From IMG/VR virus record IMGVR_UViG_3300034103_000451, positions 1-25,092 of that record: DNA of 25,092 bases; one strand, written 5' to 3'. Each line of letters begins with the position of its first letter. The stretch's first letter is position 1. Source of the stretch: a virus. The translations under genes and the position numbers were made by a program. The notes beneath the pieces are model-generated. The model was not told the DNA's origin, did no database searches, and was given only the letters and a program-made list of their open reading frames with translations. This document shows, in pieces, positions 1,490 through 20,413 of the stretch.

Positions 1490-1797
1490 GTGACACCGAC
1501 AAGAAGCTGGACGAGATCCGTGCGAGGCACGCACATGAGGTGCGGTGGCTTTGCACCTTTGGCGCGGCAGGCCTGCATCTGACAACGTCCAGCTTCCAAT
1601 CGCACGACGACCGGGCGTTTCTGCTGGCAGAGATCGAGCGTCTGCGCGCTCGCGTGAAGGAATTGGAGCGGGCCGACAGGACGCCGCGCCCGCCGGAGGA
1701 GCTTGTCGGCGCGCTGCACGACCGCATCCATCCGACCAGCGGTCGGCTGATCCACTCCAGCCCGATTGCGCCGCCGACGCAGGAGGCCAAGCCATGA
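1486..1797 (+). CDS. Small coiled-coil phage protein (EIERLRARV module), 103 aa
   Basis: The protein begins MSDTDKKLDEIRARHAHEV, continues with 'SHDDRAFLLAEIERLRARVKELERADR' (written here in overlapping parts: SHDDRAFLLAEIE and EIERLRARVKELER) and ends in QEAKP. The coiled coil at about residues 49-62 is the third copy of the module also present at 662-700 and 1110-1148. The 'H..DR.FLLAEI..LR' arrangement is common in small phage and prophage proteins from GC-rich hosts, whose function I do not know. The start is the ATGA overlap within junction repeat copy 4. The proline-rich C-terminal third looks disordered. Confidence 0.72.
   Translation: MSDTDKKLDEIRARHAHEVRWLCTFGAAGLHLTTSSFQSHDDRAFLLAEIERLRARVKELERADRTPRPPEELVGALHDRIHPTSGRLIHSSPIAPPTQEAKP
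1783..1797 (+). repeat. Junction repeat copy 5 (GAGGCCAAGCCATGA)
   Basis: This exact copy joins the coiled-coil gene to the HExxH mini-protein gene. It is followed by GCCAC, so the next protein begins MSH. Confidence 0.85.
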
Positions 1798-2060
1798 GCC
1801 ACCGCCCCGCCCCGCTCGTCATCCGCTGGTGGCTCCGCGTCACAGGCTACGAGGCGATCACGATGCCCTGGCGCGTCGCTTACTACGCGGCGTGGCCACC
1901 GGACCACGGGTTGGTTGCCCACGAAGAGGTCCACTTGGAGCAGATCGAGCGGTACGGAGCGTGGGGGTTCTCGGCGCGGTATCTCTGGTGGCTGGCGCGG
2001 TATGGATACTGGCGGCATCCGATGGAGATCGAGGCGCGGGAGAGGAGTGGGTATTCGTGA
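1794..2060 (+). CDS. HExxH mini-metallopeptidase-like phage protein, 88 aa
   Basis: Residues 43-47 read HEEVH, a gluzincin-type HExxH motif, in the context 'VAHEEVHLEQIERYG'. About 30 residues later comes 'HPMEIEARE', whose E78 or E80 could be the third zinc ligand. The pattern HEE.H..Q....G...F..RYL......Y..hP.E.EAR recurs in very small phage proteins. I infer a minimal zinc-protease fold, but activity is unproven. The protein is rich in W, Y and R and has no signal peptide. It starts at the junction-repeat ATGA. Its stop TGA shares one base with the methyltransferase ATG. It differs from its neighbours in lacking both the coiled coil and the EAKP end. Confidence 0.65.
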   Translation: MSHRPAPLVIRWWLRVTGYEAITMPWRVAYYAAWPPDHGLVAHEEVHLEQIERYGAWGFSARYLWWLARYGYWRHPMEIEARERSGYS

Positions 2061-3034
2061 TGGACAAGATATTTTTTGGAGATTGCAGATCAATTCTCAA
2101 GGATTTGTCGGGCGCAAATGTGAAGGCGCAAACTTGCGTCACAAGCCCTCCGTATTTCGGGCTGCGCGACTACGGGCACAAAGGCCAGATTGGGCTGGAG
2201 CAGACGCCCGAAGAATACATCGCCGCGATGGTCGAGGTGTTCCGCTGCGTGCGTGATGTGCTGGCTGATGATGGGACGTTGTGGTTGAACATTGGGGATA
2301 GCTATGTCGCCACAGGCGGCGAATATAAGAATGGCAGTCAAGGGAAAACATCTATTGTTGGGAAAACATCTCCTGAAAATGTTCCCGGTTTTGGGCGTGT
2401 CGAGCGCAGAAAGGCGATGGAGGCTAAAGGTTTAAAACAAAAAGACCTAATCGGCATCCCTTGGATGCTGGCCTTCGCGCTTCGCGCTGATGGTTGGTAT
2501 CTGCGCCAAGACATCATCTGGCACAAGCCGAACCCGATGCCAGAGTCGGTGCGTGACCGCTGCACGAAGGCGCATGAGTACATTTTCCTGCTGTCGAAGT
2601 CGGAGCGGTACTATTACGATGCAGAGGCAGTGAGTGAGACTGCGATATGTGACAGAAAACCCGGCCAGAAAATTACGGACACCCGCAAAACACACGGCAC
2701 CGGAGGCGGAAACGCTGGCATCAATTCATTTTTGGCAAGATACCACGAAGGCAATGCCCCTAAGACCCGCAACCGTCGCAGCGTCTGGACCGTAGCTACT
2801 CAACCCTACAGCGGCGCACACTTCGCCACGTTCCCGCCCGCGCTTATTGAGCCGTGCATCCTCGCTGGCTCACGACCCGGCGACATTGTGCTTGACCCGT
2901 TCATGGGCAGCGGCACGACGGCGCAAGTCGCGGTGCAGCATCGTCGGCGGTATCTTGGATGCGAGTTGAATCCGCAATATGAAAAGCTTCAAGCGAAGCG
3001 CATTGCATCTGTTCAGCCCGTTCTAGGGATGTGA
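2060..3034 (+). CDS. Orphan site-specific DNA methyltransferase, beta class (m4C or m6A)
   Basis: This 324-aa protein has motif IV TSPPYFGLRDYG at residues 28-39 and the AdoMet-binding motif DPFMGSGTT at 279-287, in the circularly permuted order of the beta/N4-type amino-methyltransferases. Other family features are 'QIGLEQTPEEYI', 'LWLNIGDSY' (about 76-84), 'QDIIWHKPNPMPESV' and the C-terminal 'YLGCELNPQYEKL'. The SPPY form is commonest in N4-cytosine enzymes, but N6-adenine cannot be excluded. No restriction endonuclease is nearby, so the likely role is modification of phage DNA to evade host restriction or to mark it. ATG 2060 overlaps the previous stop by one base; GTG 2057 is an alternative. 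Parts of the gene are less GC-rich than the late genes. Confidence 0.92.
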   Translation: MDKIFFGDCRSILKDLSGANVKAQTCVTSPPYFGLRDYGHKGQIGLEQTPEEYIAAMVEVFRCVRDVLADDGTLWLNIGDSYVATGGEYKNGSQGKTSIVGKTSPENVPGFGRVERRKAMEAKGLKQKDLIGIPWMLAFALRADGWYLRQDIIWHKPNPMPESVRDRCTKAHEYIFLLSKSERYYYDAEAVSETAICDRKPGQKITDTRKTHGTGGGNAGINSFLARYHEGNAPKTRNRRSVWTVATQPYSGAHFATFPPALIEPCILAGSRPGDIVLDPFMGSGTTAQVAVQHRRRYLGCELNPQYEKLQAKRIASVQPVLGM

Positions 3035-5228: not shown

Positions 5229-5446
5229 CAGCGCAGCGGCAGGAAGGGCAGGAGCTTAACCAGGAGCGCCGTCACCGCGCCGGATGCCGCTCCGACCGCC
5301 ACCAGCACCCGCCAGCCGCCGCCCGCTGCGTCGAGCGCGCTTCGCACGGCCTTGAGGTCCGCTGCCATCGCCTCGACGGTTTTGGTCAACGTGGCGACCT
5401 CGGCCTCGAGGCGTCCGAAATCGCGCGGGTCGATATGATCGCTCAT
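5228..5446 (-). CDS. Small coiled-coil protein with one C-terminal membrane segment, 72 aa
   Basis: Residues 10-40 form a likely coiled coil (FGRLEAEVATLTKTVEAMAA). They are followed by a glycine hinge (GGG at 48-50) and a hydrophobic segment at about 51-67 that ends in KLLPFLPLR. The layout is like haemolysin XhlA-type or auxiliary holin proteins, but the sequence alone cannot place it. The ATG at 5446 overlaps the tail-fibre stop in an ATGA; a further upstream start at 5482 lies inside the fibre gene. It is separated from the three-TM holin by the phosphoesterase and two small genes, so it may be a second membrane protein for lysis. Confidence 0.7.
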   Translation of the reverse strand: MSDHIDPRDFGRLEAEVATLTKTVEAMAADLKAVRSALDAAGGGWRVLVAVGAASGAVTALLVKLLPFLPLR

Positions 5447-6324
5447 GCTGCGATCTCGGTGACGGTGATTGAGGACGCGCACACGCCGCCGAACAGCCGC
5501 GCGCCGTTGTCGCCGTTGAAGGTGAAGGTCGATCCCGCATTGCTCTGCCCGCCGCGCACCTTGAACGTCGTCGCGCTGGTCGTGCCGGCGGTCATGTAGT
5601 GCGAGAACGAGATCTCGATCATCGCGTTAGCGCGGTTGATGATGTCATGCCCGCCAGCCGCCAGCGCATTCGCGGTGCTGTCCTGAAATAGCGCGACCAC
5701 CATATCCCCGAAGGATGAGGCACAGAACACGGTGACGTCGATCCGAAGCTTGTTGCTCGAGTTCGACGGCGTGATCGTCGCCGTCATCAGTTCTGCGCCC
5801 TCTGTGTTTTGCGGGACGCTGTCATCATAGAACATCGCGTTCGTGTTCGTGGCGACTGCGCTGCTCGTCGTGTTGACGACCTGAAGAACCTTGCCCGTCG
5901 TCACCGTGGCGCGTTTCAGCTTGTTGCTGTCGCTTGCATCGAGGATCAACACTTGATCGCTCGCTGCGAAGGTCACGCTGGCCGGCGAAATATTCGCGAG
6001 CTTCAGCGGCGTCAGCGCGCGCGTGTCATCGGTGCCGTTGTTGGCCTCGGTCTGCGTCGCGATCTCGATACGACCGGCGGCGCTTTCGGTCGCGTCCTCG
6101 ACGCCGAGGTTTGTCCTCGCCGCTGCGGCGGTCGCCGCGCCTGTTCCACCGTTCGCGACCGAGAGCGGGATCGATGCTGGCCCGCTGGTGATCGTGGAGA
6201 GGTTGAGGTGGGCGAGCAAGTCATTGAACTTGTCCACCAGGTCCGCGAGGTCAGGACGCGCGAGTTTTGGATCGTCCGTCGCGCTGTCGAGGTTCGCTTT
6301 CGAGGCGTTTGTCGGGAGCGTCAT
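5443..6324 (-). CDS. Tail fibre / receptor-binding protein
   Basis: The 293-aa protein has an N-terminal region 'LVDKFNDLLAHLN' and then two repeat-type motifs that recur in tail fibres: 'VANGGTGAATAAAARTNLGV' (about 57-76) and 'ATQTEANNGTDDTRALTPLK'. The C-terminal about 150 residues are rich in beta-forming residues and S/T/N ('NTNAMFYDDSVPQNTEGAEL', 'SNSSNKLRI') and would form the receptor-binding end. It starts in an ATGA overlap with the tail-tip gene, which suggests attachment to that protein. I see no intramolecular chaperone motif at the C-terminus. Confidence 0.85.
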   Translation of the reverse strand: MTLPTNASKANLDSATDDPKLARPDLADLVDKFNDLLAHLNLSTITSGPASIPLSVANGGTGAATAAAARTNLGVEDATESAAGRIEIATQTEANNGTDDTRALTPLKLANISPASVTFAASDQVLILDASDSNKLKRATVTTGKVLQVVNTTSSAVATNTNAMFYDDSVPQNTEGAELMTATITPSNSSNKLRIDVTVFCASSFGDMVVALFQDSTANALAAGGHDIINRANAMIEISFSHYMTAGTTSATTFKVRGGQSNAGSTFTFNGDNGARLFGGVCASSITVTEIAA

Positions 6325-9128
6325 GCTTGCGGCCCTCGTAGTTCTACATCGATTGTAGCATTGGCGAGTGTACCAGAGGAATTGTAGACTTTGAACTCTG
6401 CCGCCGGCTCACTGTTCACTGTCTGCGTCTTCGATATCAACTCCCACGACCAGCCCGCGCCGACGTTCTGAAGCGCGAGGATACGCGCGGTCGAGATCGC
6501 CGCCAGCTGGCCGCGCGCGCCGATCTTGAAATGTCCCGCCGCGACCGACGAGAACCACGACGCCGTCTCGGTGGCGGTGTTCACATCCTCGTAGGTGTCC
6601 GTATACGCGGACGACGAGATGATCGTGGTCAGGCCAGACAGGACCGGCGTGGCATCTGAGACGCTCGCGCGGATCTGCACATACCGTTTGCCCTCGACCA
6701 GCGCGAGCGCGACCCAGGAGCCGGTGACGGTGCCGTCCGCCTGGGTGCCAGTCTTCATCTCCAGCGTCACTGTGCCGTTCGCCGTCGCCGTCACCAGCGG
6801 CGTGAACGTCACATCGGCCCCGAGATCGAGGACCGGCGTCTCGTAGCGGATCGGGCTGTTGTTCGTGAGGATACTGTCCCAGGTCGAAGGCAAGCTCGAC
6901 CAGGCGCTCGGGAGGTTCGACCAGTTCTGACTGCTGGTCGCGTGGAGCGCGTTGTCGGTGTCCAAGAAGCACGACGTCTTCGTCCCCGGCCATGTCAGCG
7001 ACTGCTCGATCCGCTGGAGCAACACATCGCGCAGCGGCGGATCACCGAGCACGGCGGACGAGATGAAGCGCGCGTCGGTGCTTTCGTTGCCGCTGCTGTC
7101 CACGGTCTTGATGGCGAACCAGTATGTCCCCGAGGCCAGATCGGCGGTCTCATACGGAGACGAGATGAGCAGCCCTTCATGCAACGCCGTCATCGAGGAC
7201 CAGTCGGTCGTCGAGGAGGTCTTGTAGCGGATGCGATAGCCGCCGCCGCTGCGAACGTCCGCCGGAAGGCTCGCAAGGCTCCAGGTGAAACGCCGCGTGC
7301 CGTCCGCGATACGCGCGACCTGAAACGTGTCAGGGCGCGGCGGCGCAGCCGATTTCCCGGCCACCACATGCCCGGTGACCGTCACCCACCCCGACACCAC
7401 GCCGAGACCAGAGATCGATCGGACACGCACATCGTAGGCCGTGCCGTCCTCGACCGGCGCGACGTAGCCGACCGAGACCGAGGCCGAGGACAGCACGCTA
7501 TCCCAGTCGGTCTCGGCGCTCTTCTTCCACGCGAGTTCGTAGTTCGCGACCCTGGCGTCGGACGGCGCGGTCCATGTCGCCTTGATCCGCGAGATGACCG
7601 AACCCTCGGCCAGCTGGAGGATCTCGGCGTCGCCGCTCGCTAGGACTAGTGACGTCGGCGCGCTGACGCTGAATGGATTGGGGAGGTCCGTATCCGGCGC
7701 GGGATCAACCTCTTCCTCATCGGTGCCCGCCGTCCAGTCGTAGACGGTCGAGGCGGTCTCACGCAGATCGAGATCGACGCCGAGGCTACCGTCGCCATCG
7801 GTGACGAAGCGGAGGCCCGTGACCTCAAACGGTTTCGCCGTCCAGCCCATGCGCGTGTTCGTCAGGCCGACCACATCGCCAGGAACGAGGCGATACGCCG
7901 TCAACTTCGCGGCCAGCTGCACGCTGATCTGCTGCCGCGCCTTGCGTAGCTCGATGCGCGCGATGCGCTGCGCGGTCGCCGCCGATGTCGTGAAGGGGAG
8001 ATCGATATCGCGCCACAGCTTCTCGCCGCCGTCGTCGCTGACATAGGTCGCGTTTGTGACCGGAGGGAAATCGCTCGCTTGCCACTTGTTGTCGGGGCTG
8101 ACGAAGGTGCCTTTCACGCCGTTGGCGAGATCGCGGCGGCTCAAGCGCGACGAAACGCGGATAGGCCCGCGCAGATCGGCCTCGGTCAGCGTGATGGTCG
8201 GCGCGGTGTACGCACCAGCGAAAATCGACCATGTCCCACCGACCAACGATGCGCGGCCCGCCATCGCGCCGGTCATCGAGGCGATGATGTCTCTCGGCCT
8301 CTGAGATGTATCGAATGTGCCGTTCGCCGTGTACCGGTCCTCGGTCCCGCCCGCCGCGAGCGTCACGTTCTCGTCGCAGATGTTCGCGGCGGCGATGAGG
8401 TCGGCCTCATCGATGCGCGTCGCATAGTCCACGCCGAGACCGCGTATCGGGTCGGTGAGATAGTCGGCCAGGCAGAGCGCCGCGTTCGCGCTCCAGGCCG
8501 TCGTGGATGTGCGCGGGTCGTAGACCTTCTTGCCCTTCACGACGGCGGTGATATTCGGGATGCCGGACGCGAAGAGGTCCGAATTGTGGGTCAGCCGGAC
8601 GTAGATGCACGCGCGACCACGCTGGCGGTGGTCGGCGGTCCATTTGTCGGACGCCTCGGTGATGAGATCCGCGAAGGCCGTCTGTGTGTCGGTGCCGAGC
8701 TTCTTCTGGACGCGGACATATCCGGCGTATTTGCCAGTTGCGTTGCCCGAGCCGTCGAGCGGCACGATCTCGTCATCGAAGTATATGTCCCCGATCTCCT
8801 CGCATTCATGACCGGCGAGCGTGATGATCAGGTGGAGCTTGGAATTGCTGTCGGTCGTATGCAGGAACGTGATCGCGCCGCCGGTCCGCACCTGGCCGTA
8901 CACCACGCGCCACGGCGTGATCGGCTCGCGCACGGTCTGCGTGCGTTGAGCGCCGGCGAAAGGGTCGCTGAACTTCGGCTGCTTCGGCTTGAAGATAGCC
9001 CCAGCGATGGCCGAAAGCGTCATTGCAACCGCAAGTCCGCCCACTATTCCGACGAGGCTGGCGGCAACGACGCCGCCAATCCCGATGATTTTCACCGCAG
9101 CGGCAATAGCCGGGACAACAAACGGCAT
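6321..9128 (-). CDS. Tail tip / host-specificity protein (J- or megatron-like) with FN3 domains
   Basis: This protein is 935 aa. Its first about 48 residues are strongly hydrophobic (PFVVPAIAAAVKIIGIGG onward), as in J-like tail tip proteins. Residues about 60-480 form the hub region with 'PWRVVYGQVRTGGAITFLH', 'DYLTDPIRGLGVD' and 'LVPGDVVGLTNTRMGW'. Two fibronectin type III-like domains lie at about 490-590 and 595-700, followed by a beta-rich C-terminal region. It forms the central tail-tip spike that contacts the host and triggers DNA ejection. ATG 9128 shares one base with the previous stop; a longer frame to 9320 lies antisense-like inside the preceding gene and is low-complexity. Confidence 0.9.
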   Translation of the reverse strand: MPFVVPAIAAAVKIIGIGGVVAASLVGIVGGLAVAMTLSAIAGAIFKPKQPKFSDPFAGAQRTQTVREPITPWRVVYGQVRTGGAITFLHTTDSNSKLHLIITLAGHECEEIGDIYFDDEIVPLDGSGNATGKYAGYVRVQKKLGTDTQTAFADLITEASDKWTADHRQRGRACIYVRLTHNSDLFASGIPNITAVVKGKKVYDPRTSTTAWSANAALCLADYLTDPIRGLGVDYATRIDEADLIAAANICDENVTLAAGGTEDRYTANGTFDTSQRPRDIIASMTGAMAGRASLVGGTWSIFAGAYTAPTITLTEADLRGPIRVSSRLSRRDLANGVKGTFVSPDNKWQASDFPPVTNATYVSDDGGEKLWRDIDLPFTTSAATAQRIARIELRKARQQISVQLAAKLTAYRLVPGDVVGLTNTRMGWTAKPFEVTGLRFVTDGDGSLGVDLDLRETASTVYDWTAGTDEEEVDPAPDTDLPNPFSVSAPTSLVLASGDAEILQLAEGSVISRIKATWTAPSDARVANYELAWKKSAETDWDSVLSSASVSVGYVAPVEDGTAYDVRVRSISGLGVVSGWVTVTGHVVAGKSAAPPRPDTFQVARIADGTRRFTWSLASLPADVRSGGGYRIRYKTSSTTDWSSMTALHEGLLISSPYETADLASGTYWFAIKTVDSSGNESTDARFISSAVLGDPPLRDVLLQRIEQSLTWPGTKTSCFLDTDNALHATSSQNWSNLPSAWSSLPSTWDSILTNNSPIRYETPVLDLGADVTFTPLVTATANGTVTLEMKTGTQADGTVTGSWVALALVEGKRYVQIRASVSDATPVLSGLTTIISSSAYTDTYEDVNTATETASWFSSVAAGHFKIGARGQLAAISTARILALQNVGAGWSWELISKTQTVNSEPAAEFKVYNSSGTLANATIDVELRGPQA

Positions 9129-9547
9129 CAGACGCCCCAGGCAGCGACGATGCAGCGCGAGGGCATCATCAGTAGCCCCGACTGCGAAAGGCACGCCACG
9201 CGCGCGCCCGCCACGATCCCGGTGGCTTCGGTCTCGCCATAATCGGTCGTGACGAGCACGACATCGCCGCGCTTTGCCATCAGCGTGTTGTTCATGGCCG
9301 GACCTAACGCCTTGCTCCACACCGCACGCAGCCCGCCGCCGGACAGCGCGAGCATCGTGGCGCGCGCGCCCTCCTCGTCGGTGTATTGGCCGCGATAGAG
9401 CGCCACCGGGTCGGTGTCAGTCATCGCGCGGACGCAGTCGCCCGCGAACAGGCCGCAGTCGTGAACGCCCCATTGGAATGGCTTGTCGCGCGCATCCTCA
9501 AACGCAGCGGCGAGCCTCGATGCCCAATCTTCGCGGCGAACGATCAT
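9128..9547 (-). CDS. DUF6950 / NlpC-P60-like tail-tip protein
   Basis: The 139-aa protein contains 'FQWGVHDCGLFAGDCVRAM', where C31 is in the position of the NlpC/P60 nucleophile. It later has 'KRGDVVLVTTDYGETEATGI' and 'SRCIVAAWGV'. This matches the DUF6950 family found between the hub protein and the J/megatron protein in alphaproteobacterial siphophages and gene transfer agents, the slot of the tail cell-wall peptidase. I do not see the second catalytic histidine expected downstream of the 'GDVV' strand, so peptidase activity is doubtful. The start at 9547 overlaps the preceding stop by one base; ATG 9559 is a possible longer start. Confidence 0.82.
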   Translation of the reverse strand: MIVRREDWASRLAAAFEDARDKPFQWGVHDCGLFAGDCVRAMTDTDPVALYRGQYTDEEGARATMLALSGGGLRAVWSKALGPAMNNTLMAKRGDVVLVTTDYGETEATGIVAGARVACLSQSGLLMMPSRCIVAAWGV

Positions 9548-13460: not shown

Positions 13461-14717
13461 TCAGGCCGCCGTGTCGTGGATGCGGATCGTCGTGGTGTCG
13501 CGGCCCGCCGCGCTGCCGGTGTAGCGGAGCGCCTGGAACGGCAGCGAGATGGTCTGACCATTCGCGCCGGACAACGGCATGTCCGCACCGCCAAGCTTGA
13601 CGCGCGGGAGGTAGATGCAGATGGCATCGGCGTTCGCCGCCGAGCCGCTATCGACGCGCACGATCAGCTGAAGCTCGCTCTCGTTGAGGAAGGCGTTGAA
13701 GAGGGCGAAGTCCTCGACAAACGCCGACACCGTGCCCGTCACATTCGCGCGACCGAGGAAGATCTCGGGCGCGATGTTCTGATTGATCACGGCTTGCATC
13801 TCGGCCTCGAGATCGAGCGCGATGTCGAGGCCGGTGACGATGCCAAGCGGCGAGCTTCCCGCGTCCGGCGACAGGATTAGGCCGTTGGCCGAGGCACAGG
13901 CCGAGGTCGTCGTCGCGGCGGTCGGCGCGGTGAAGTAAGGTGCGGACCCGGCGGACAGCGAGACCGCGTTGCGGCCCATCACCGGGATCTCCACCGTCGA
14001 GAGGCCGGTGGCCGGGAGCGACAGCGAGTAGCCGGACACGCGGCATTCGGTGAAGAGGCGCGAGAGGTCAAGATCCTCGCGGTACTCCTCGATGCCGAAC
14101 TTGCGCGCGGTGAAGCCCGAGGCCGGGACGATAGTGGTCTTGCCGGGGCGCGACAGATTGAACGAGGTATCGGCCACCGCGTCGGTGGTCGGCGCGGGCG
14201 ACACCGTCACCGTGCGGTTGCTCGTCCCGCCGAAGCTGCGGATCACGAAGTTCTTGTCGTTGTTCGCCGTCGTCGCGAGGTTCGTGAAGCGTATAATGTC
14301 TCCAACGCGCAGACCGCTCGTCACCGGATCGCCGGCAGTGAAGACGAAGGTCGAGGTCGAGCTGTCGCTCGTCACCGAGGTGAACTGCGTGTTTGACAGC
14401 GACAGCGACGACACCGCCGCGTCGCGATGCGCGGCGACGAGCAACTCGAAATAGGTGCTGGGCGAAAGCTCGCCCGAGATCGCGCCTTCGACGCGCCGCA
14501 GCCCGTGCCGGAAGTCCGCGATCTGCCGATCGGTGCGGATCTCCTCGGACTGGTAGCTGTCCTTGACCAGGTTGAGACTGGACGAGACGCGCCGCAGCAC
14601 CTGACCGCCGGACGCACCGGGATCGGTCGCAGTATCCGGCTCGCTGTTGGCCGTGATCGACCCGCTGCTGTAAGCCTTGTAGACGATGCGTGACTGCACG
14701 CCTTCACTGATCGGCAT
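13461..14717 (-). CDS. Major tail tube protein
   Basis: This 418-aa protein has the N-terminal signature 'QVLRRVSSSLNLVKDSYQSE' followed by 'RTDRQIADFRHGLRRVEGAI' and 'GELSPSTYFELL', which I recognise as the phage tail tube family (PF18906-type). The rest is beta-rich, ending 'GQTISLPFQALRYTG' and 'DTTTIRIHDTAA'. The length is greater than that of minimal tube proteins, so an added surface domain is possible. A Shine-Dalgarno AAGGAG lies 8 nt before ATG 14717, one of the stronger sites in the late run, fitting a highly expressed subunit. It sits between the tail terminator and the chaperones, as expected. Confidence 0.9.
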   Translation of the reverse strand: MPISEGVQSRIVYKAYSSGSITANSEPDTATDPGASGGQVLRRVSSSLNLVKDSYQSEEIRTDRQIADFRHGLRRVEGAISGELSPSTYFELLVAAHRDAAVSSLSLSNTQFTSVTSDSSTSTFVFTAGDPVTSGLRVGDIIRFTNLATTANNDKNFVIRSFGGTSNRTVTVSPAPTTDAVADTSFNLSRPGKTTIVPASGFTARKFGIEEYREDLDLSRLFTECRVSGYSLSLPATGLSTVEIPVMGRNAVSLSAGSAPYFTAPTAATTTSACASANGLILSPDAGSSPLGIVTGLDIALDLEAEMQAVINQNIAPEIFLGRANVTGTVSAFVEDFALFNAFLNESELQLIVRVDSGSAANADAICIYLPRVKLGGADMPLSGANGQTISLPFQALRYTGSAAGRDTTTIRIHDTAA

Positions 14718-14729
14718 GATCGGGTCTCC

Positions 14730-15164
14730 TTAGCCCTGGAAGCGATATTGGAACGGGATCGACGCGCCGCGACTATACCACGCGCCGTTCGAGCGTGTTG
14801 TGTCGGCAATGCCGACGATAGGTCCGACGAAGGTCAGATTGCCCGCGCGCCGCGCGCGGAGAGCCACGACGGCGGCGTCGAGAAGGTCGAGGGTAACGTC
14901 CTCACCGATGCCGACTTCAGAGAACACGCGCACCGCGACCGCGCCGAACCAGAGCCGCTCATTGGCGAGCGATCCGCCGCCAAATGCGCGCATCTCCTCG
15001 CGGCTGAACTCGGTATGCAGATGCAGCCAGTGCTGCACCTCGCCAGGCGTCGGCGTGTCGGGATGGTCGTTCTGGTGCCAGATGACGCGGTAGGTTTCGC
15101 CGTGCGGCCAGCGCGCATCCCAGACGGCCTTGATCTCGGTGCGGATAGTGGTGCGGAGGCTCAT
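14730..15164 (-). CDS. Tail terminator / tail completion protein
   Basis: The 144-aa protein starts 'MSLRTTIRTEIKAVWDARWP' and has 'HGETYRVIWHQNDHPDTPTP', 'LHTEFSREEMRAFGGG', 'LDLLDAAVVALRARRAG' and the end 'GASIPFQYRFQG'. Its position directly before the tail tube gene and its helix-then-beta layout with a C-terminal 'PFQYRF' strand fit the hexameric tail terminator family. It would stop tail tube growth and bind the head completion proteins. The neighbouring larger gene encodes a second, clearly related copy of this domain. The start lies in an ATGA overlap with that gene. Confidence 0.75.
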   Translation of the reverse strand: MSLRTTIRTEIKAVWDARWPHGETYRVIWHQNDHPDTPTPGEVQHWLHLHTEFSREEMRAFGGGSLANERLWFGAVAVRVFSEVGIGEDVTLDLLDAAVVALRARRAGNLTFVGPIVGIADTTRSNGAWYSRGASIPFQYRFQG

Positions 15165-16600
15165 GCCCGGTACTCATACGTCCAGGGCATCATCGTGCCA
15201 CGGATGAACCACGCGCCGTCCTCGGTCGCGCTATCGAAGATCTCGGTCGATCCCTCGATGAACGACAGCCCCGACTCGCGGCGCGAACGGTAGACGCCGA
15301 CCGCGTCATCGAGCAGGTCGAGCGCGGCGTCGTCACCGTAGCCCGTCTCAGCGATCACGCGGATCTCGACCGTCCCGCGCCACTCGCGGTCGGACGCCTC
15401 GCGACCGCCGGCATACGCGCGAATGTCCTCGCCGTCGAAGTCGATCATCACATGCACCCACGCACGCGCCTCGCCGGGCTCTGGGACGCTCTCGTTGTCG
15501 TTCTGCTGCCAGAGTACCCGGTAGGTCGTTCCGTGCGGCCAGCGGGCGTCCCAGGCGGTTCTGATGGCATCGCGGATGACACGCAGCGTGCCGGGAGGCG
15601 CGATAAGCTGGATGCGCGGCGGGATGCCGCCGATGGCGATGGCCGCAGAAGCGACCTCGATGGCCTTGCCCGCCGCCAGCGTCGGAGACGTGGCGGTCAG
15701 TGTGATGGTCGCGACCGGGACCGCAATGCTCTTGCCCGCCGTCAATTGCGGCGCAAGCGCCGCGAGAACCTGAGCCGAGGCGACCGGGACGGCGATGGAT
15801 TTTCCCGCCGAGATCGCCGGCGTCTCGCCGCCGAGGAGGATGGCGGCGGCGGGCACATCGATTACCTTGCCGGCCGCAATGATCGGCGGAGAAGCCGCTA
15901 GCGCAACTATAGCCGACGGCGGAGAAACAGATGCGCCCGTTATCAGTGATGGTGCGGAAGCAGACAGCGTGACCGTTGCGACGGGAACGGCGACTGCATC
16001 ACTGATCGAAACAGTCGGGGCGGATGCCAAAAGCGCAATATTGGCGGCGGGAACGGTGACGACCTTGCCAGCCGAAATCGTCGGAACGGTGGAGGCGAGG
16101 CTGATCGTCGCAGCGGGAACATCGATGCGCTTGCCCGCCGCGAGGCTCGGCGTGCTGGCCGAAAGCGTGATGATCGCCGCCGGGACGGCGATGGCGACGC
16201 CAGTCGCGGCCTGAATGGTCGGCGCGAATCCAGAAAGCGTGATCGTCGCAGCGGGAGCATCGATGCGCTTGCCAGCGTTGATCGACGGAGCATTGCCCGC
16301 GAGTGCGATTGTCGCGGCGGGAACAAAAACGGATTTAATTATCGATAGGGTTGGAGCGTTAGCTGCGAGGCTGATCGTCGCAGCAGGAGCGTCGATGCGC
16401 TTGCCCGCGCTGACCGCCGGCGCGGTCGAGGCAAGTGTGATTGTCGCGACAGGAACGATGACACTCTTGCCCGCCGCCAGGCTTGGCGCATTCACAGCAA
16501 CGGTGATCGTCGCTGCCGGAACAGTGATCGTCGTGGCTGGCGTTGCGCCAGCACCAGACGCGCCGAGCGGCGCAGATGCTAGCGGCGCTGATCCGAGCAT
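15161..16600 (-). CDS. Tandem-repeat protein fused to a second tail-terminator domain
   Basis: This 479-aa protein has three parts. Residues 1-26 are a small-residue leader (APLASAPLG). Residues 27-338 are about fourteen units of 22 aa with consensus VPAATITLA..AP.L.AGK.I. Residues 339-479 are homologous to the adjacent tail terminator: WDARWPHGxTYRVxWxQND is shared with 16 of 19 positions identical, and both have 'LDLLD.A' and a 'GAW..RG....' ending. The repeats, each with two likely short beta-strands and a turn, suggest a beta-solenoid or a string of small beta modules. I infer an appendage attached to the head-tail junction through the terminator-like domain. The ATG lies 3 nt after the previous stop. 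Confidence 0.85.
   Translation of the reverse strand: MLGSAPLASAPLGASGAGATPATTITVPAATITVAVNAPSLAAGKSVIVPVATITLASTAPAVSAGKRIDAPAATISLAANAPTLSIIKSVFVPAATIALAGNAPSINAGKRIDAPAATITLSGFAPTIQAATGVAIAVPAAIITLSASTPSLAAGKRIDVPAATISLASTVPTISAGKVVTVPAANIALLASAPTVSISDAVAVPVATVTLSASAPSLITGASVSPPSAIVALAASPPIIAAGKVIDVPAAAILLGGETPAISAGKSIAVPVASAQVLAALAPQLTAGKSIAVPVATITLTATSPTLAAGKAIEVASAAIAIGGIPPRIQLIAPPGTLRVIRDAIRTAWDARWPHGTTYRVLWQQNDNESVPEPGEARAWVHVMIDFDGEDIRAYAGGREASDREWRGTVEIRVIAETGYGDDAALDLLDDAVGVYRSRRESGLSFIEGSTEIFDSATEDGAWFIRGTMMPWTYEYRA
15587..16522 (-). repeat. Array of about fourteen 66-bp coding repeats
   Basis: The units encode 22 residues each, starting at V/A-P-A-A-T-I/V. Unit 5 has 24 residues, unit 12 has 23, and unit 14 is degenerate before the terminator-like domain. 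The DNA copies share words such as the plus-strand GCGGGAACATCGATGCGCTT and variants, so expansion was partly recent. All indels keep the reading frame. Confidence 0.85.
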
Positions 16601-16603
16601 CGC

Positions 16604-16843
16604 TTACTCGGTCGGTGCTTCGTCAGCAGCCGGTGGCGCGGGCGGGATTTCGATCTCGCGCCATGTCTGCCGCATCGCCCCGTCACGCATCTCGGGTTCG
16701 GCCTCGACCAGCATCATGCCGGGAGCCGGACGCCAGCGCGGCGTCGGCAGAACGAGCGGGATGCCCGCGCGCTTCAGCGCTTCGACATTCGCGCCTTCGG
16801 GGATCGAGCCGTCCGCATTGAGGAGGAACTGCTTCACGCCCAT
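16604..16843 (-). CDS. Small protein paired with the glycine-rich adhesin, 79 aa
   Basis: The product reads '[20 protein letters not shown]', '[20 protein letters not shown]' and '[20 protein letters not shown]', ending in a proline/alanine-rich tail. Short proteins of this pattern (FL.n.dG..P.g.....L...GIP.V.PTP ... GM..VEAEP..RDG...QTWRE) occur beside tail-fibre genes in phages, where they may act in fibre assembly or attachment. I am not sure of a family name. ATG 16843 overlaps the adhesin gene by 10 nt. GTG 16861 is an alternative start. Confidence 0.65.
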
Positions 16844-17991
16844 GAGATCACCCGCACCCACCCGTCGCCGCCGTTGCCGCCAGCGCCGCTGGCGAAGCCG
16901 TTATCGGATGCTGCGCCGCCGCCGCCGCCAGAGCCATAAATGCCATTTCCGCCAGCGCCGGTCGCTTGGCCGGTGGCATATGATCCGCCGCCAGCGCCTG
17001 TCGCTGCAACACGGTCCATTAGGGCTTGACTATTCCCTGCCGATCCATTGGCGCCAGAGGTGCCGCCCGCCCCTCCTGCGAGATTCGTTGATATCACGCC
17101 GGAAAGGCTGGTCGTTGGCGCACGAATCAGACCGCCATCTCCACCAACGGACGTAGTGGTCACGTTTGCATCCCTGCCGCCCCCACCGCCGCCGCCAGTA
17201 GTCGATATGCCGTTTGATGCTGCTGGCGCAGTGCCACCAGAGCCTCCAGAACCGCCACCATTTGCGCCCGATCCACCGCTTAGAGACTCAAGTGATATTT
17301 GTCCACGGCTCACTCCCGCCGTTGGAACACTGCTTGAGTTTCCACCGTTTCCACCTGTCCCCATTGCTGCTGCAAAGACAGAGAATGACGAAACGCCGCC
17401 CGGATTACCGGCCGATCCGTCTGTGCTATCAACAGAAATCGACGCCCCTCCAGTTCCGCCAGCACCAACAACCACGCTTTCTGTCGCATTAAAATATTGA
17501 GCGGGAGCAGTAATGCAGACCAGCGCGCCGCTCCCCCCTCCAGCCCCTCCCGATCTGTATGATGTGGTCGCACCTCTGCGTCCCGATCCACCCCCACCCC
17601 CACCACCGATGAGGATGACCTTGACCATCTTCGCCCAGCTAGGCTTCGTCCAGGTGGTCGATCCCGCCGTCGTGTAGGTATCGATCTTGACCTGGGCAAC
17701 ATCCTCTGCCGCAGCGGTGATCAACACCGTGGCCGAGCCCGACAGGCTGATGGCGGTGTCGCTGTTGCTGCTTTCCAGCACCGTGCGCGAGAGGGTCGTG
17801 CCGCTGGCGGTGTAGGTGCCCTGGCCGATCTCCCAGTTGTTTCCATCCTCGATGACGTAGCGGACGACATCGCCATCGACCACGCCAGCCGCTGCAAACG
17901 ACTGATAGCCCGACGCCGCCGAGCCGAGCGTGAGCGTGCCCGTGCCGGTGGTGGCAGTGGACATCTTCGCACGGTTGGCGAGCTTCAGCAT
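16834..17991 (-). CDS. Glycine-rich adhesin / receptor-binding protein
   Basis: The 385-aa protein has an N-terminal domain (residues 1-95) with '[20 protein letters not shown]', '[19 protein letters not shown]' and '[12 protein letters not shown]', a module common at the start of phage fibre proteins. Then '[20 protein letters not shown]' introduces a long glycine-rich region to the C-terminus with runs such as GGGGGGG and many GAGG/GG.G units. Such regions can fold as polyglycine-II helix bundles, as in the gp38 adhesin of T4-like phage S16; that fold is inferred here. A start at 17997 would be TTG, so ATG 17991 is preferred. It lies in the head-tail region, not at the tail tip. Confidence 0.85.
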
Positions 17992-17993
17992 TA

Positions 17994-18425
17994 TCAAGCC
18001 ACCGTGAAGCTAAAGATGCCGTTGGCGTCCCAGATGATCTTGAAGTCAGTGCCCGCGCCCGCCGACTGCGACCCGTCAAAGTCGATGAACGCCAGCGGCG
18101 GATCGTTCGCGTCGGTGTCGTTGTAGATCACGCCGTAGCTGGCCGTGATCGAGCCGCCGCTCGCCGTCAACGTCACGTCGTCGGCGTCGAACTTCGCATC
18201 GTTCGTGGTCACGGTCGTTACGGCGACGTTCGCGAGCGAGGGACCGCCAGCCGTGTAGCCGGTGCCAGTCGTGGCCTCGGTGCCACCGACGCCCGCGAGC
18301 GTCGTATGCGTCGCGTTGAAGGTCGCGGCGGTGTAGAGCTTCACCTTGTAGGTGTCGCCCGGCACGTTGGAGCCTTCGGCGAACAGCTTGGCCGTGTGGT
18401 TGTAGAGGGAGATGGTCACTGCCAT
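17994..18425 (-). CDS. Conserved phage virion-associated protein
   Basis: The 143-aa protein starts '[20 protein letters not shown]' and includes '[20 protein letters not shown]', '[20 protein letters not shown]', '[20 protein letters not shown]' and '[13 protein letters not shown]'. This pattern recurs in many siphophages near head-tail genes; its role is uncharacterised as far as I know. It is predicted all-beta. AGGAG lies 8 nt before the ATG. Adjacency to the glycine-rich protein suggests that it may anchor or decorate the same structure. Confidence 0.75.
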
Positions 18426-18436
18426 TTGGAAGGCTC

Positions 18437-19099
18437 CTAGAGCTTGGAAACACGGACGCCGGGATAGGAGATCTCCGATCCGGCCTGACGGTCGCGGCGC
18501 TTGCCCTGCGCGCGTCGTAGACGATATGCACCCGACAGGGTGACGAAGGTATGCCGAACCAGCGCGACGTTGCCGAAGCGCGCTTTGGCAGCCTTAGCGA
18601 CGCTGTCCACATACCGATAGCGGCTGTCATCCACGATGAACGGCGAGCCGGACTTCGTCTTGCCGACCTCCAGCCGCCGCGCGTAGGGCTGCGTGTTCGC
18701 GACGACGAAGGACTGCGTGTCGTGCGTGATGGCGGAGACCTGAGCTTCGACGCCATCGACTAGAAGGACGAAAGACCGCGAATAGACGCCGCTCTCGCCG
18801 CGCACCGCGCCACGCTCCAGCGTGTCGAGGAGCCACGCCGCGATCTCGCGGAGGTATTCGTATTCGATGATGATGGTGGACTTGTCGGTCGCGGCATCGA
18901 TAGGCGCGCCGCGCCGTCCGTCCACGATGGTCTCGGTTGTCGGCGCGATGCCCGCACGTTGCGTCTGCTCGGCCAGAACGCGCGCCTTCTCGCGACGCGC
19001 GGCGTCTTCAAGCAGCGCCTCGACTTGCGCCGGGAACAGGTTCTTCGATGCCACCGTGATCTCGCGCGCGAAGACGCGCGGCGAGAGGGCGGCTCTCAT
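18437..19099 (-). CDS. Head-tail joining / minor structural protein, 220 aa
   Basis: The protein begins 'MRAALSPRVFAREITVASKN' with a helical region to about residue 60. It then has a mixed part with 'DKSTIIIEYEYLREIAAWLL', 'GESGVYSRSFVLLVDG' and 'NTQPYARRLEVGKTKSG'. The 'V.N..PYA..LE.G' segment is the hallmark of HK97 gp10-like neck proteins, which link the head closure ring to the tail. The family is larger here than the usual about 130 residues because of the N-terminal insert. ATG 19099 overlaps the preceding stop in an ATGA; 19108 would be TTG. The C-terminus is rich in R and K. Confidence 0.72.
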   Translation of the reverse strand: MRAALSPRVFAREITVASKNLFPAQVEALLEDAARREKARVLAEQTQRAGIAPTTETIVDGRRGAPIDAATDKSTIIIEYEYLREIAAWLLDTLERGAVRGESGVYSRSFVLLVDGVEAQVSAITHDTQSFVVANTQPYARRLEVGKTKSGSPFIVDDSRYRYVDSVAKAAKARFGNVALVRHTFVTLSGAYRLRRAQGKRRDRQAGSEISYPGVRVSKL

Positions 19100-19428
19100 C
19101 CTCGGCAAACCATGTTGTAACGCTCGACCGCCTCACCGACGCGCACCGTCTCGACCGACTGCACGTTGAGCAGCCGCCCTTCGAGGAGCAACTTGTCGTC
19201 GCGACGCGGCGGAGCCGGCCATTGTGCGGCGTCGATCTCGGCGTGGTGCGCGATGATCTGGCGGTCGCCTTGCTGTAGCCCAGACCCCGGCACGATCTCC
19301 TGTGCGCGGAACTGGCGCGCGAAAACGCGCAATGTGACTTCGTGCCAGACCTGGTTCGCGCCGATGCCGGTCAGCCGACGCAGCTGCGCGACCTGGCCGA
19401 GCCGATCGATCGCGCCGCGCGTGTTCAT
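19096..19428 (-). CDS. Head closure / head-tail adaptor protein
   Basis: This 110-aa protein has 'RLGQVAQLRRLTGIGANQVW', 'EIVPGSGLQQGDRQIIAHHA' and 'DKLLLEGRLLNVQSVETVRV'. The G-x-x-x-GDR.....EI and D.....G....V..V pattern is that of small head closure (stopper) proteins. Its place between the connector and the gp10-like neck gene fits. It would seal the portal channel after packaging and receive the tail. ATGA overlaps link it on both sides. Confidence 0.72.
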   Translation of the reverse strand: MNTRGAIDRLGQVAQLRRLTGIGANQVWHEVTLRVFARQFRAQEIVPGSGLQQGDRQIIAHHAEIDAAQWPAPPRRDDKLLLEGRLLNVQSVETVRVGEAVERYNMVCRG

Positions 19429-19823
19429 CGGACGTTGGCGCGGACCGAGACCACCGTGGACCCGGCATAGGTGCCCGTCGAGACCACCGTCGCGCGCAGC
19501 CGGTCGCCCAGCGTGCCGTCGAGCGCGGTGTCAGCGGCGAGGCTTCCGGCGGTCGCGGCGGCGATGCGCGGCGTGAGTCCGGAAACGGTCATCACCTTCT
19601 GGAGCCCCGATGTCGTGAAATCGAAACGCGCGATCTGCACCCAGGTCACGCCCTGATCGAGCGAGGTCTCGACCACCGCGTAGCAGGATGTGCCGCCCGA
19701 GCCATAGGCCAGTCGCGCCGACAGCGTGACGGCGAGCGCGCCGCTGAGATCATCGACAACATCCCCGACTTGCGTCGCGGCGGTCGTGATCGAGAAATCG
19801 CCCAGACTGAACGTGCCGCTCAT
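19425..19823 (-). CDS. Small beta-rich virion protein, 132 aa
   Basis: The product starts 'MSGTFSLGDFSITTAATQVG' and contains 'GGTSCYAVVETSLDQGVTWV', followed by 'IARFDFTTSGLQKVMTVSGL' and 'LGDRLRATVVSTGTYAGSTV'. The layout (noise-like T/S/G strands, 'V.tSlDqG.TW..iA.F.f') is like sandwich-fold decoration or neck proteins seen in phages near the head-tail connector. I cannot name the family. It is coupled by ATGA overlaps to the connector and the head closure genes, so it is probably part of the head-tail interface or a surface decoration. Confidence 0.68.
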   Translation of the reverse strand: MSGTFSLGDFSITTAATQVGDVVDDLSGALAVTLSARLAYGSGGTSCYAVVETSLDQGVTWVQIARFDFTTSGLQKVMTVSGLTPRIAAATAGSLAADTALDGTLGDRLRATVVSTGTYAGSTVVSVRANVR

Positions 19824-20413
19824 ACGATGACCTCTCGATAGGGATTGAGCAGCGCGACCACGCCGTCAGGAAGCGGCCCGCCGCCGTTACGCGGGTCGAG
19901 CCAGGATTGCGCGCCGATGCCCTCGACGCTCTCGGAGCGTAGCGAAGGATCGCGACCGCGAGAGGCATTCATCGCGACGACCAGCTGCGTCGCCGCGCGT
20001 TCGATGGCCGGCGCGACGTTGTCCGGCAGATCGTAGCCCGCGACGTAAGTCAGGATGACCTTGACCGCCGGCCAGCGTGCGCGCTCGTCGTCAAAGAGGC
20101 GATAGGCGAAGCTGCGGTCGATCTCGTAGTCGGTGGCGGCGAGCGTCACGCCGTCCTCGACGATGCTCGTCACGCTGACCACCGGCCAGCGCGATAGCAT
20201 GATCACCTCGGACGCCGCTGGCAGCCGCAGCGTCTCCGCGACGGTCTCGCGACCGAGCGGTCGCCCGAGGTAGTCAGCGATGACGGCACTGGCCTGATCG
20301 ATATAGGCCAGCAGCCGCGCGTCGTCGCTCGTTCCCGAGATCGAAAGCTCGCGCTTGACCGCGTCGAGCGAGGTCAGGCGTGAGGATGTTGCGGGAACGA
20401 GGACTGAGAGCAT
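19820..20413 (-). CDS. Head-tail connector protein (gp6-like adaptor)
   Basis: The 197-aa protein begins with 'TSLDAVKRELSISGTSDDAR' and 'LLAYIDQASAVIADYLGRPL', the start of the HK97 gp6 / SPP1 gp15 connector family. It continues with 'VIMLSRWPVVSVTSIVEDGV', 'LTYVAGYDLPDNVAPAIERA' and ends 'GVVALLNPYREVIV'. Connectors form a ring beneath the portal. The helix pair at residues 14-45, 'Y.aGY..P...P..i..A', and the C-terminal 'LL.PYR' are the recognisable features. Overlapping stops and starts link it to both neighbours. Confidence 0.87.
   Translation of the reverse strand: MLSVLVPATSSRLTSLDAVKRELSISGTSDDARLLAYIDQASAVIADYLGRPLGRETVAETLRLPAASEVIMLSRWPVVSVTSIVEDGVTLAATDYEIDRSFAYRLFDDERARWPAVKVILTYVAGYDLPDNVAPAIERAATQLVVAMNASRGRDPSLRSESVEGIGAQSWLDPRNGGGPLPDGVVALLNPYREVIV

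Follow-up and report, generated by a model that had tools for sequence, protein, structure and literature searches.

A duplicated tail terminator fused to a 22-residue repeat array as a candidate anchor of exchangeable adhesins at a phage neck

Gene organization around T2R

The window, i.e., the whole virus record of 25,092 bases that was analysed, contains genes that are read mostly on the minus strand. Along this strand, the head half encodes the portal, protease, major capsid protein, adaptor, Hc1, p16336 and p644, and is followed by the genes for a Gly-rich protein, an 85-aa protein, T2R, T1, the tail tube, the tape measure and the distal tail. An ordinary tail-tip set is present, with a J-like protein (6321-9320) and a short fibre (5443-6324). 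A DNA methyltransferase gene (phrog_67) is located at 1766-3034, on the strand opposite to the structural genes. The features of the locus are the following:

13461..14717, minus strand: tail tube protein, 418 aa (Phage_tube_2 / phrog_290)
14730..15164, minus strand: T1, stand-alone tail terminator, 144 aa (phrog_179, E 4.5e-7), directly before the tail tube gene
15161..16600, minus strand: T2R, 479 aa, with an N-terminal cap, repeats and the terminator-like T2
15161..15610, minus strand: T2, duplicated tail-terminator domain of T2R (phrog_179; 46% identity to T1; dN/dS and structure matches below)
15611..16522, minus strand: repeat array inside T2R, which holds the swap breakpoint between relatives
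16604..16861, minus strand: 85-aa protein, last cassette gene of the MLG type, no family match, always with the MLG N-terminus
16834..17997, minus strand: Gly-rich fibre-like cassette protein (phrog_863, Gly_rich_2)
17994..18425, minus strand: p644, cassette entry gene (phrog_644), which adjoins repeat proteins in other phages
18437..19108, minus strand: p16336 (phrog_16336), with a short motif in common with a protein annotated as HK97 gp10 (probability 13%)
19096..19428, minus strand: head closure Hc1 (phrog_161)
19820..20413, minus strand: head-tail adaptor (phrog_442)

Judged from its sequence, p16336 is a possible, albeit weak, candidate for a Ne1/HK97-gp10-like neck protein. The 85-aa cassette protein (16604..16861) is a possible fibre chaperone.

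The initial annotation had described the open reading frame at 15161-16600 as carrying about fourteen 22-aa repeats, which was confirmed, with exactly 14 units on the minus strand. T2R overlaps the T1 gene by 4 bp and begins with a cap (residues 1-26), followed by the array (residues 27-340), whose units measure 22-25 aa, eleven of them exactly 22 aa, and the last of which enters the linker to the T2 domain (about residues 331-479). The 22-aa periodicity is far above chance, the autocorrelation of the array being 0.39 at lag 22, compared to a maximum of 0.23 in 2000 shuffles at any lag from 10 to 49. The repeats were modelled as short strands and not helices, with a pLDDT of about 55, which is too poor to call a beta-solenoid. 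Complete T2R-type proteins of the relatives range from 342 to 568 aa, a difference mainly due to array length; the variation is given as protein lengths, a regex count of repeats over-counting in relatives. An internal start that would release a stand-alone T2 was looked for, but a separate start is not evident because codons 321-350 of T2R contain no ATG, GTG or TTG. In most relatives (L014, L016, L019, L036 and others), a hydrophobic motif, GL.FLF..L.G, is found at or near the T2R N-terminus and sometimes within the array; the window copy does not carry it.

Duplication and conservation of the tail terminator

Tail terminators are hexameric rings that stop the polymerisation of the tail tube. 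In the window, the tail tube gene directly follows T1, and T2R is located one gene further up. The relationship of the C-terminal domain of T2R to the adjacent terminator, initially noticed in the WDARWPHGxTYRVxWxQND stretch, was reproduced (16 of 19 positions identical), and overall T2 and T1 share 46% identity over about 145 residues. Both match the phrog_179 'tail terminator' profile (E 4.5e-7 for T1 and 2.3e-6 for T2), which supports the suggested gene duplication of a tail terminator. The structural model of T2 is of low confidence (pLDDT 49) and its matches rest on overall arrangement; nevertheless, the top Foldseek and VIA matches are almost all solved terminators, with lambda gpU as the best (Z 10.9), followed by the GTA protein 6tba (Z 9.2), and with those of T5, T1, Mu and R4C. 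The lack of a terminator fold in this domain, which had been named as a refutation of the initial reading, was thus checked and not observed in this low-confidence model. T2 belongs, by profile and by predicted fold, to the terminator family.

Purifying selection on T2 (dN/dS 0.14) is about equal to that on T1 (0.11) and on the tail tube (0.12), hence T2 is a working part and not a relic. T2 was kept in all 55 records that contain T1 and at least 500 bp upstream of it, and no single-terminator member of the T2R group was found among the relatives fetched, which are IMG/VR records plus one from a proteobacterial MAG (UBA964); the host of the group is probably a proteobacterium. A tblastn search of a phage collection returned no match for T1; for T2R, two Gordonia phages matched, in the repeats only. 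A sequence search of the PDB with T1/T2, p644 and T2R returned no convincing match, the terminators of the outgroup phages DMCA and P26059A gave no significant result in a profile comparison, and no open-access paper was found that describes a repeat-fused terminator.

The relatedness of T1 and T2 also bears on the ring that they could form. T1 and T2R might alternate in a mixed hexamer on a tube ring of pseudo-six-fold (trimeric) symmetry, which would display three arms and not six. This reading, which corresponds to the neck adhesin proposed below with a different stoichiometry, is consistent with the 46% identity of the two proteins and with the 418-aa tube protein (13461-14717), whose N- and C-terminal parts align in register around G..V.G, suggestive of a domain duplication. 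In addition, the only solved relative of the tail tube is 8xan, an entry with three chains, and in T5 the tube beneath the terminator is trimeric and domain-duplicated, its symmetry being C3/pseudo-C6 (PMC11784142). However, the self-comparison of the tube is not significant (probability under 1%), and such an alternating ring is considered rather unlikely.

Repeat proteins outside the T2R group

Proteins with the same repeats but no terminator were found in L039/L083, L089 and L166, i.e., three cases in partial genomes, two of which (L089 and L166) are related to each other. Hence the repeat does not always sit beside a terminator domain, a point that the initial annotation had raised. These proteins start with MLGF.PLAS.PL and come after p644 and a fibre gene, directly before a 106-107 aa protein of the BppU_N type, the Pfam BppU_N match being shown for L039 and L089. 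As such repeat proteins occur independently of a terminator, the fusion is likely to have added the spare terminator to a shaft protein that was already present.

No BppU_N was found in the window and 17 relatives (18 T2R-group records, mostly fragments), nor in T2R itself. When 47 records were scanned, most of them picked via p644, two matched, indicating that p644 alone does not predict BppU_N. A BppU_N likeness of MiniFlayer gp9 and of the L088/L093 proteins was noticed by eye only and was not confirmed by Pfam. In 936 phages, a BppU-like domain was proposed to form a neck collar ring that carries fibres with carbohydrate-binding tips (PMC6669499). As the same repeat module pairs elsewhere with BppU_N, which was not found in the 18 T2R-group records, the terminator copy may have taken over the docking role of BppU_N.

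In the satellite phage MiniFlayer (L081:5186-9997, gp6-gp8), gp6 is a homologue of p644 (44%). The large gp8 comes after it, repeatedly shows V.PM.GSG.. motifs and gives a virion-structural match. MiniFlayer attaches to the neck of its helper (PMC10690885), and in view of its p644 homologue, a p644-type module may take part in this attachment.

The repeat protein of L039/L083 adjoins tail-tip genes, while the copies of L089 and L166 are located between a Mu-like portal and the capsid genes. T2R and the cassette could form a virion adhesin whose T2 docks at another site, such as the distal tail or the length of the tube, which is conceivable because the terminator fold resembles other tail ring proteins. 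The related modules of L039 and of the Gordonia phage Gibbles are indeed found among tail-tip or minor-tail genes, and T5 p143, which is encoded beside the terminator but sits at the tail tip, is a precedent for docking away from the neck and cautions against reading virion position off gene order (PMC11784142). On the other hand, T2 is closest to T1, its structural matches are terminators and not distal tail or hub proteins, and the T2R gene is placed between Hc1 and the tail tube, so that docking away from the neck appears doubtful.

The variable cassette and its exchange

All relatives whose sequence extends far enough carry a variable cassette, which is bounded by T2R and by p644 or the protein that replaces it. 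Its contents include a Gly-rich fibre-like protein, proteins starting MADNVAITPGSG, a kelch-like propeller (below the Pfam cut-off) and a LamG-like protein ending in NRPPLIGD. The latter may be called LamG-like from a reading of its sequence, and its profile kin are phrog_10356 virion structural proteins. The LamG-like proteins (L011:3371-4147, L028:4670-5464 and relatives) diverge strongly in their middles and all end in NRPPLIGD, which is perhaps a docking tail. The cassette of the window (16834-18425) is short and without the propeller, MADNVAITPGSG and 53-aa genes, which in relatives stand between p644 and the Gly-rich gene. In L072 (1871-2302), a different protein of 143 aa occupies the p644 position, hence p644 itself appears exchangeable.

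Three classes of T2R N-terminus were observed, each of which is invariably accompanied by its own last cassette gene (31 of 31 distinct cases: MLR with LamG, n=18; MLG with the 85-aa protein, n=8; MPQ with the 53-aa protein, n=5). The classes are scattered on a tree of T1 and tube DNA, with 7 changes for a minimum of 2. This linkage between cassette and N-terminus may simply reflect the fact that the two DNA segments are neighbours. In L024 and L028, the DNA is identical over T1, the tube and the 3′ half of T2R, whereas the 5′ half and the cassette differ, and the crossover falls inside the repeat array. Both are single contigs, for which assembly chimeras at repeats are a concern. However, L023 (near L024) and L027 (near L028) come from other samples and match in N-terminal class, which makes an artefact less likely. 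The repeats connect a conserved terminator-like domain with an N-terminal region covarying with the adhesin-like cassette just upstream.

Alternatively, T2R could act in assembly or as a ring chaperone and be missing from mature virions, with the repeats as a little-selected spacer. The variable length of the array (full proteins of 342-568 aa) would be in agreement with this role. It is nevertheless very unlikely, as T2R is strictly linked to fibre and adhesin-like genes and as the same repeat proteins, there lacking a terminator, neighbour genes of these kinds in other phages.

A proposed adhesin at the phage neck

The presence of a duplicated terminator, fused to a repeat arm and located beside a swappable, sugar-binding-like set of proteins, suggests that the phage probably has exchangeable host-grabbing arms at the neck in addition to the tail tip. 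The repeat proteins found elsewhere beside fibre and BppU_N genes, together with the linkage of the cassette, make a neck adhesin arm the most likely mechanism. It is therefore proposed, with a probability of about 0.5, that T2R provides both the anchor and the shaft of an adhesin which can be exchanged and which is docked to the phage neck by the duplicated terminator.

In the proposed neck adhesin, a tandem copy of the tail terminator would have been fused to the C-terminal end of a pre-existing, repeat-built shaft protein. T2 would dock atop the tail, where it would either stack as a second ring onto that of T1 or be incorporated into it, and the 22-aa repeats would point outward and serve as a spacer whose length differs between relatives. 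The cassette proteins (i.e., the Gly-rich fibre, LamG-like protein and propeller) would be received by the N-terminal cap, the class of which varies with the cassette, and would contact the host surface from the neck, besides the ordinary tail tip. Exchange of the cassette by recombination inside the repeat array would keep the docking end constant while the binding end changes. The initial suggestion of a neck appendage was hence retained as the most likely role, but the repeats themselves are probably not its business end, since it is the N-terminus that covaries with the cassette. The tips of neck fibres need not bind the host, as illustrated by the carbohydrate module of gp80 of phage A-1(L), which did not bind its host (PMC10966104). 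A more elaborate version, in which the duplicated terminator is the docking hub of a portable adhesin module, replaces the BppU_N dock and alternates with T1 in one ring to present three exchangeable receptor-binding neck arms, is considered quite unlikely.

For siphophages, host range is commonly deduced from the tail-tip proteins. If the neck adhesin is correct, an uncultured phage group, present in many metagenomes, keeps a second and rapidly swapped binding device at the neck, on a reused tail-capping ring. It would be a clear case of gene duplication converting an assembly part into a display platform, and annotators should then seek receptor-binding genes between the head closure and tail terminator genes.

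Comparison with known systems

The neck passage structure (NPS) of lactococcal 936 and TP901-1 phages resembles the adhesin proposed for T2R in having a constant ring-docking domain, a shaft and a swappable carbohydrate-binding end, and was proposed to be located at the neck (PMC6669499, PMC4493119). In the NPS, an N-terminal BppU-like dock, a trimeric coiled-coil shaft and a CBM are contained in one chain (PMC6669499, PMC4493119), whereas in T2R the proposed dock is the C-terminal terminator domain and the proposed shaft consists of 22-aa repeats, and the variable adhesin-like proteins have genes of their own instead of being a swappable binding domain in the T2R chain. The T2R system would work like an NPS without belonging to this class, given that the search for the defining BppU-like domain was negative and that the adhesin-like proteins form chains of their own.

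Similar to the system proposed for T2R, the neck fibres of the Anabaena phage A-1(L) are built from several genes, with a ring-protein anchor and a carbohydrate-binding module at the far end; unlike T2R, they are attached via gp82 to a pentadecameric neck protein, and no duplicated or fused terminator was described (PMC10966104). In the Gordonia phages Gibbles (gp36/gp37) and GMA1 (Orf27/Orf28), a p644 homologue is followed by a repeat-containing protein, as in the T2R group, but without a terminator domain and among minor tail, lysis and hypothetical genes.

T2 resembles the tail terminators (lambda gpU, T5 p142, the GTA terminator and phrog_179) in fold, in profile match and in its place before the tail tube gene. 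T2R differs from the solved terminators in being a second copy with about 330 additional N-terminal residues. Nearly all the solved terminators that were matched align from within their first dozen residues, hence no comparable N-terminal fusion was seen among them. The PVC terminator, for its part, carries a second terminator-like domain within one chain (PMC11784142).
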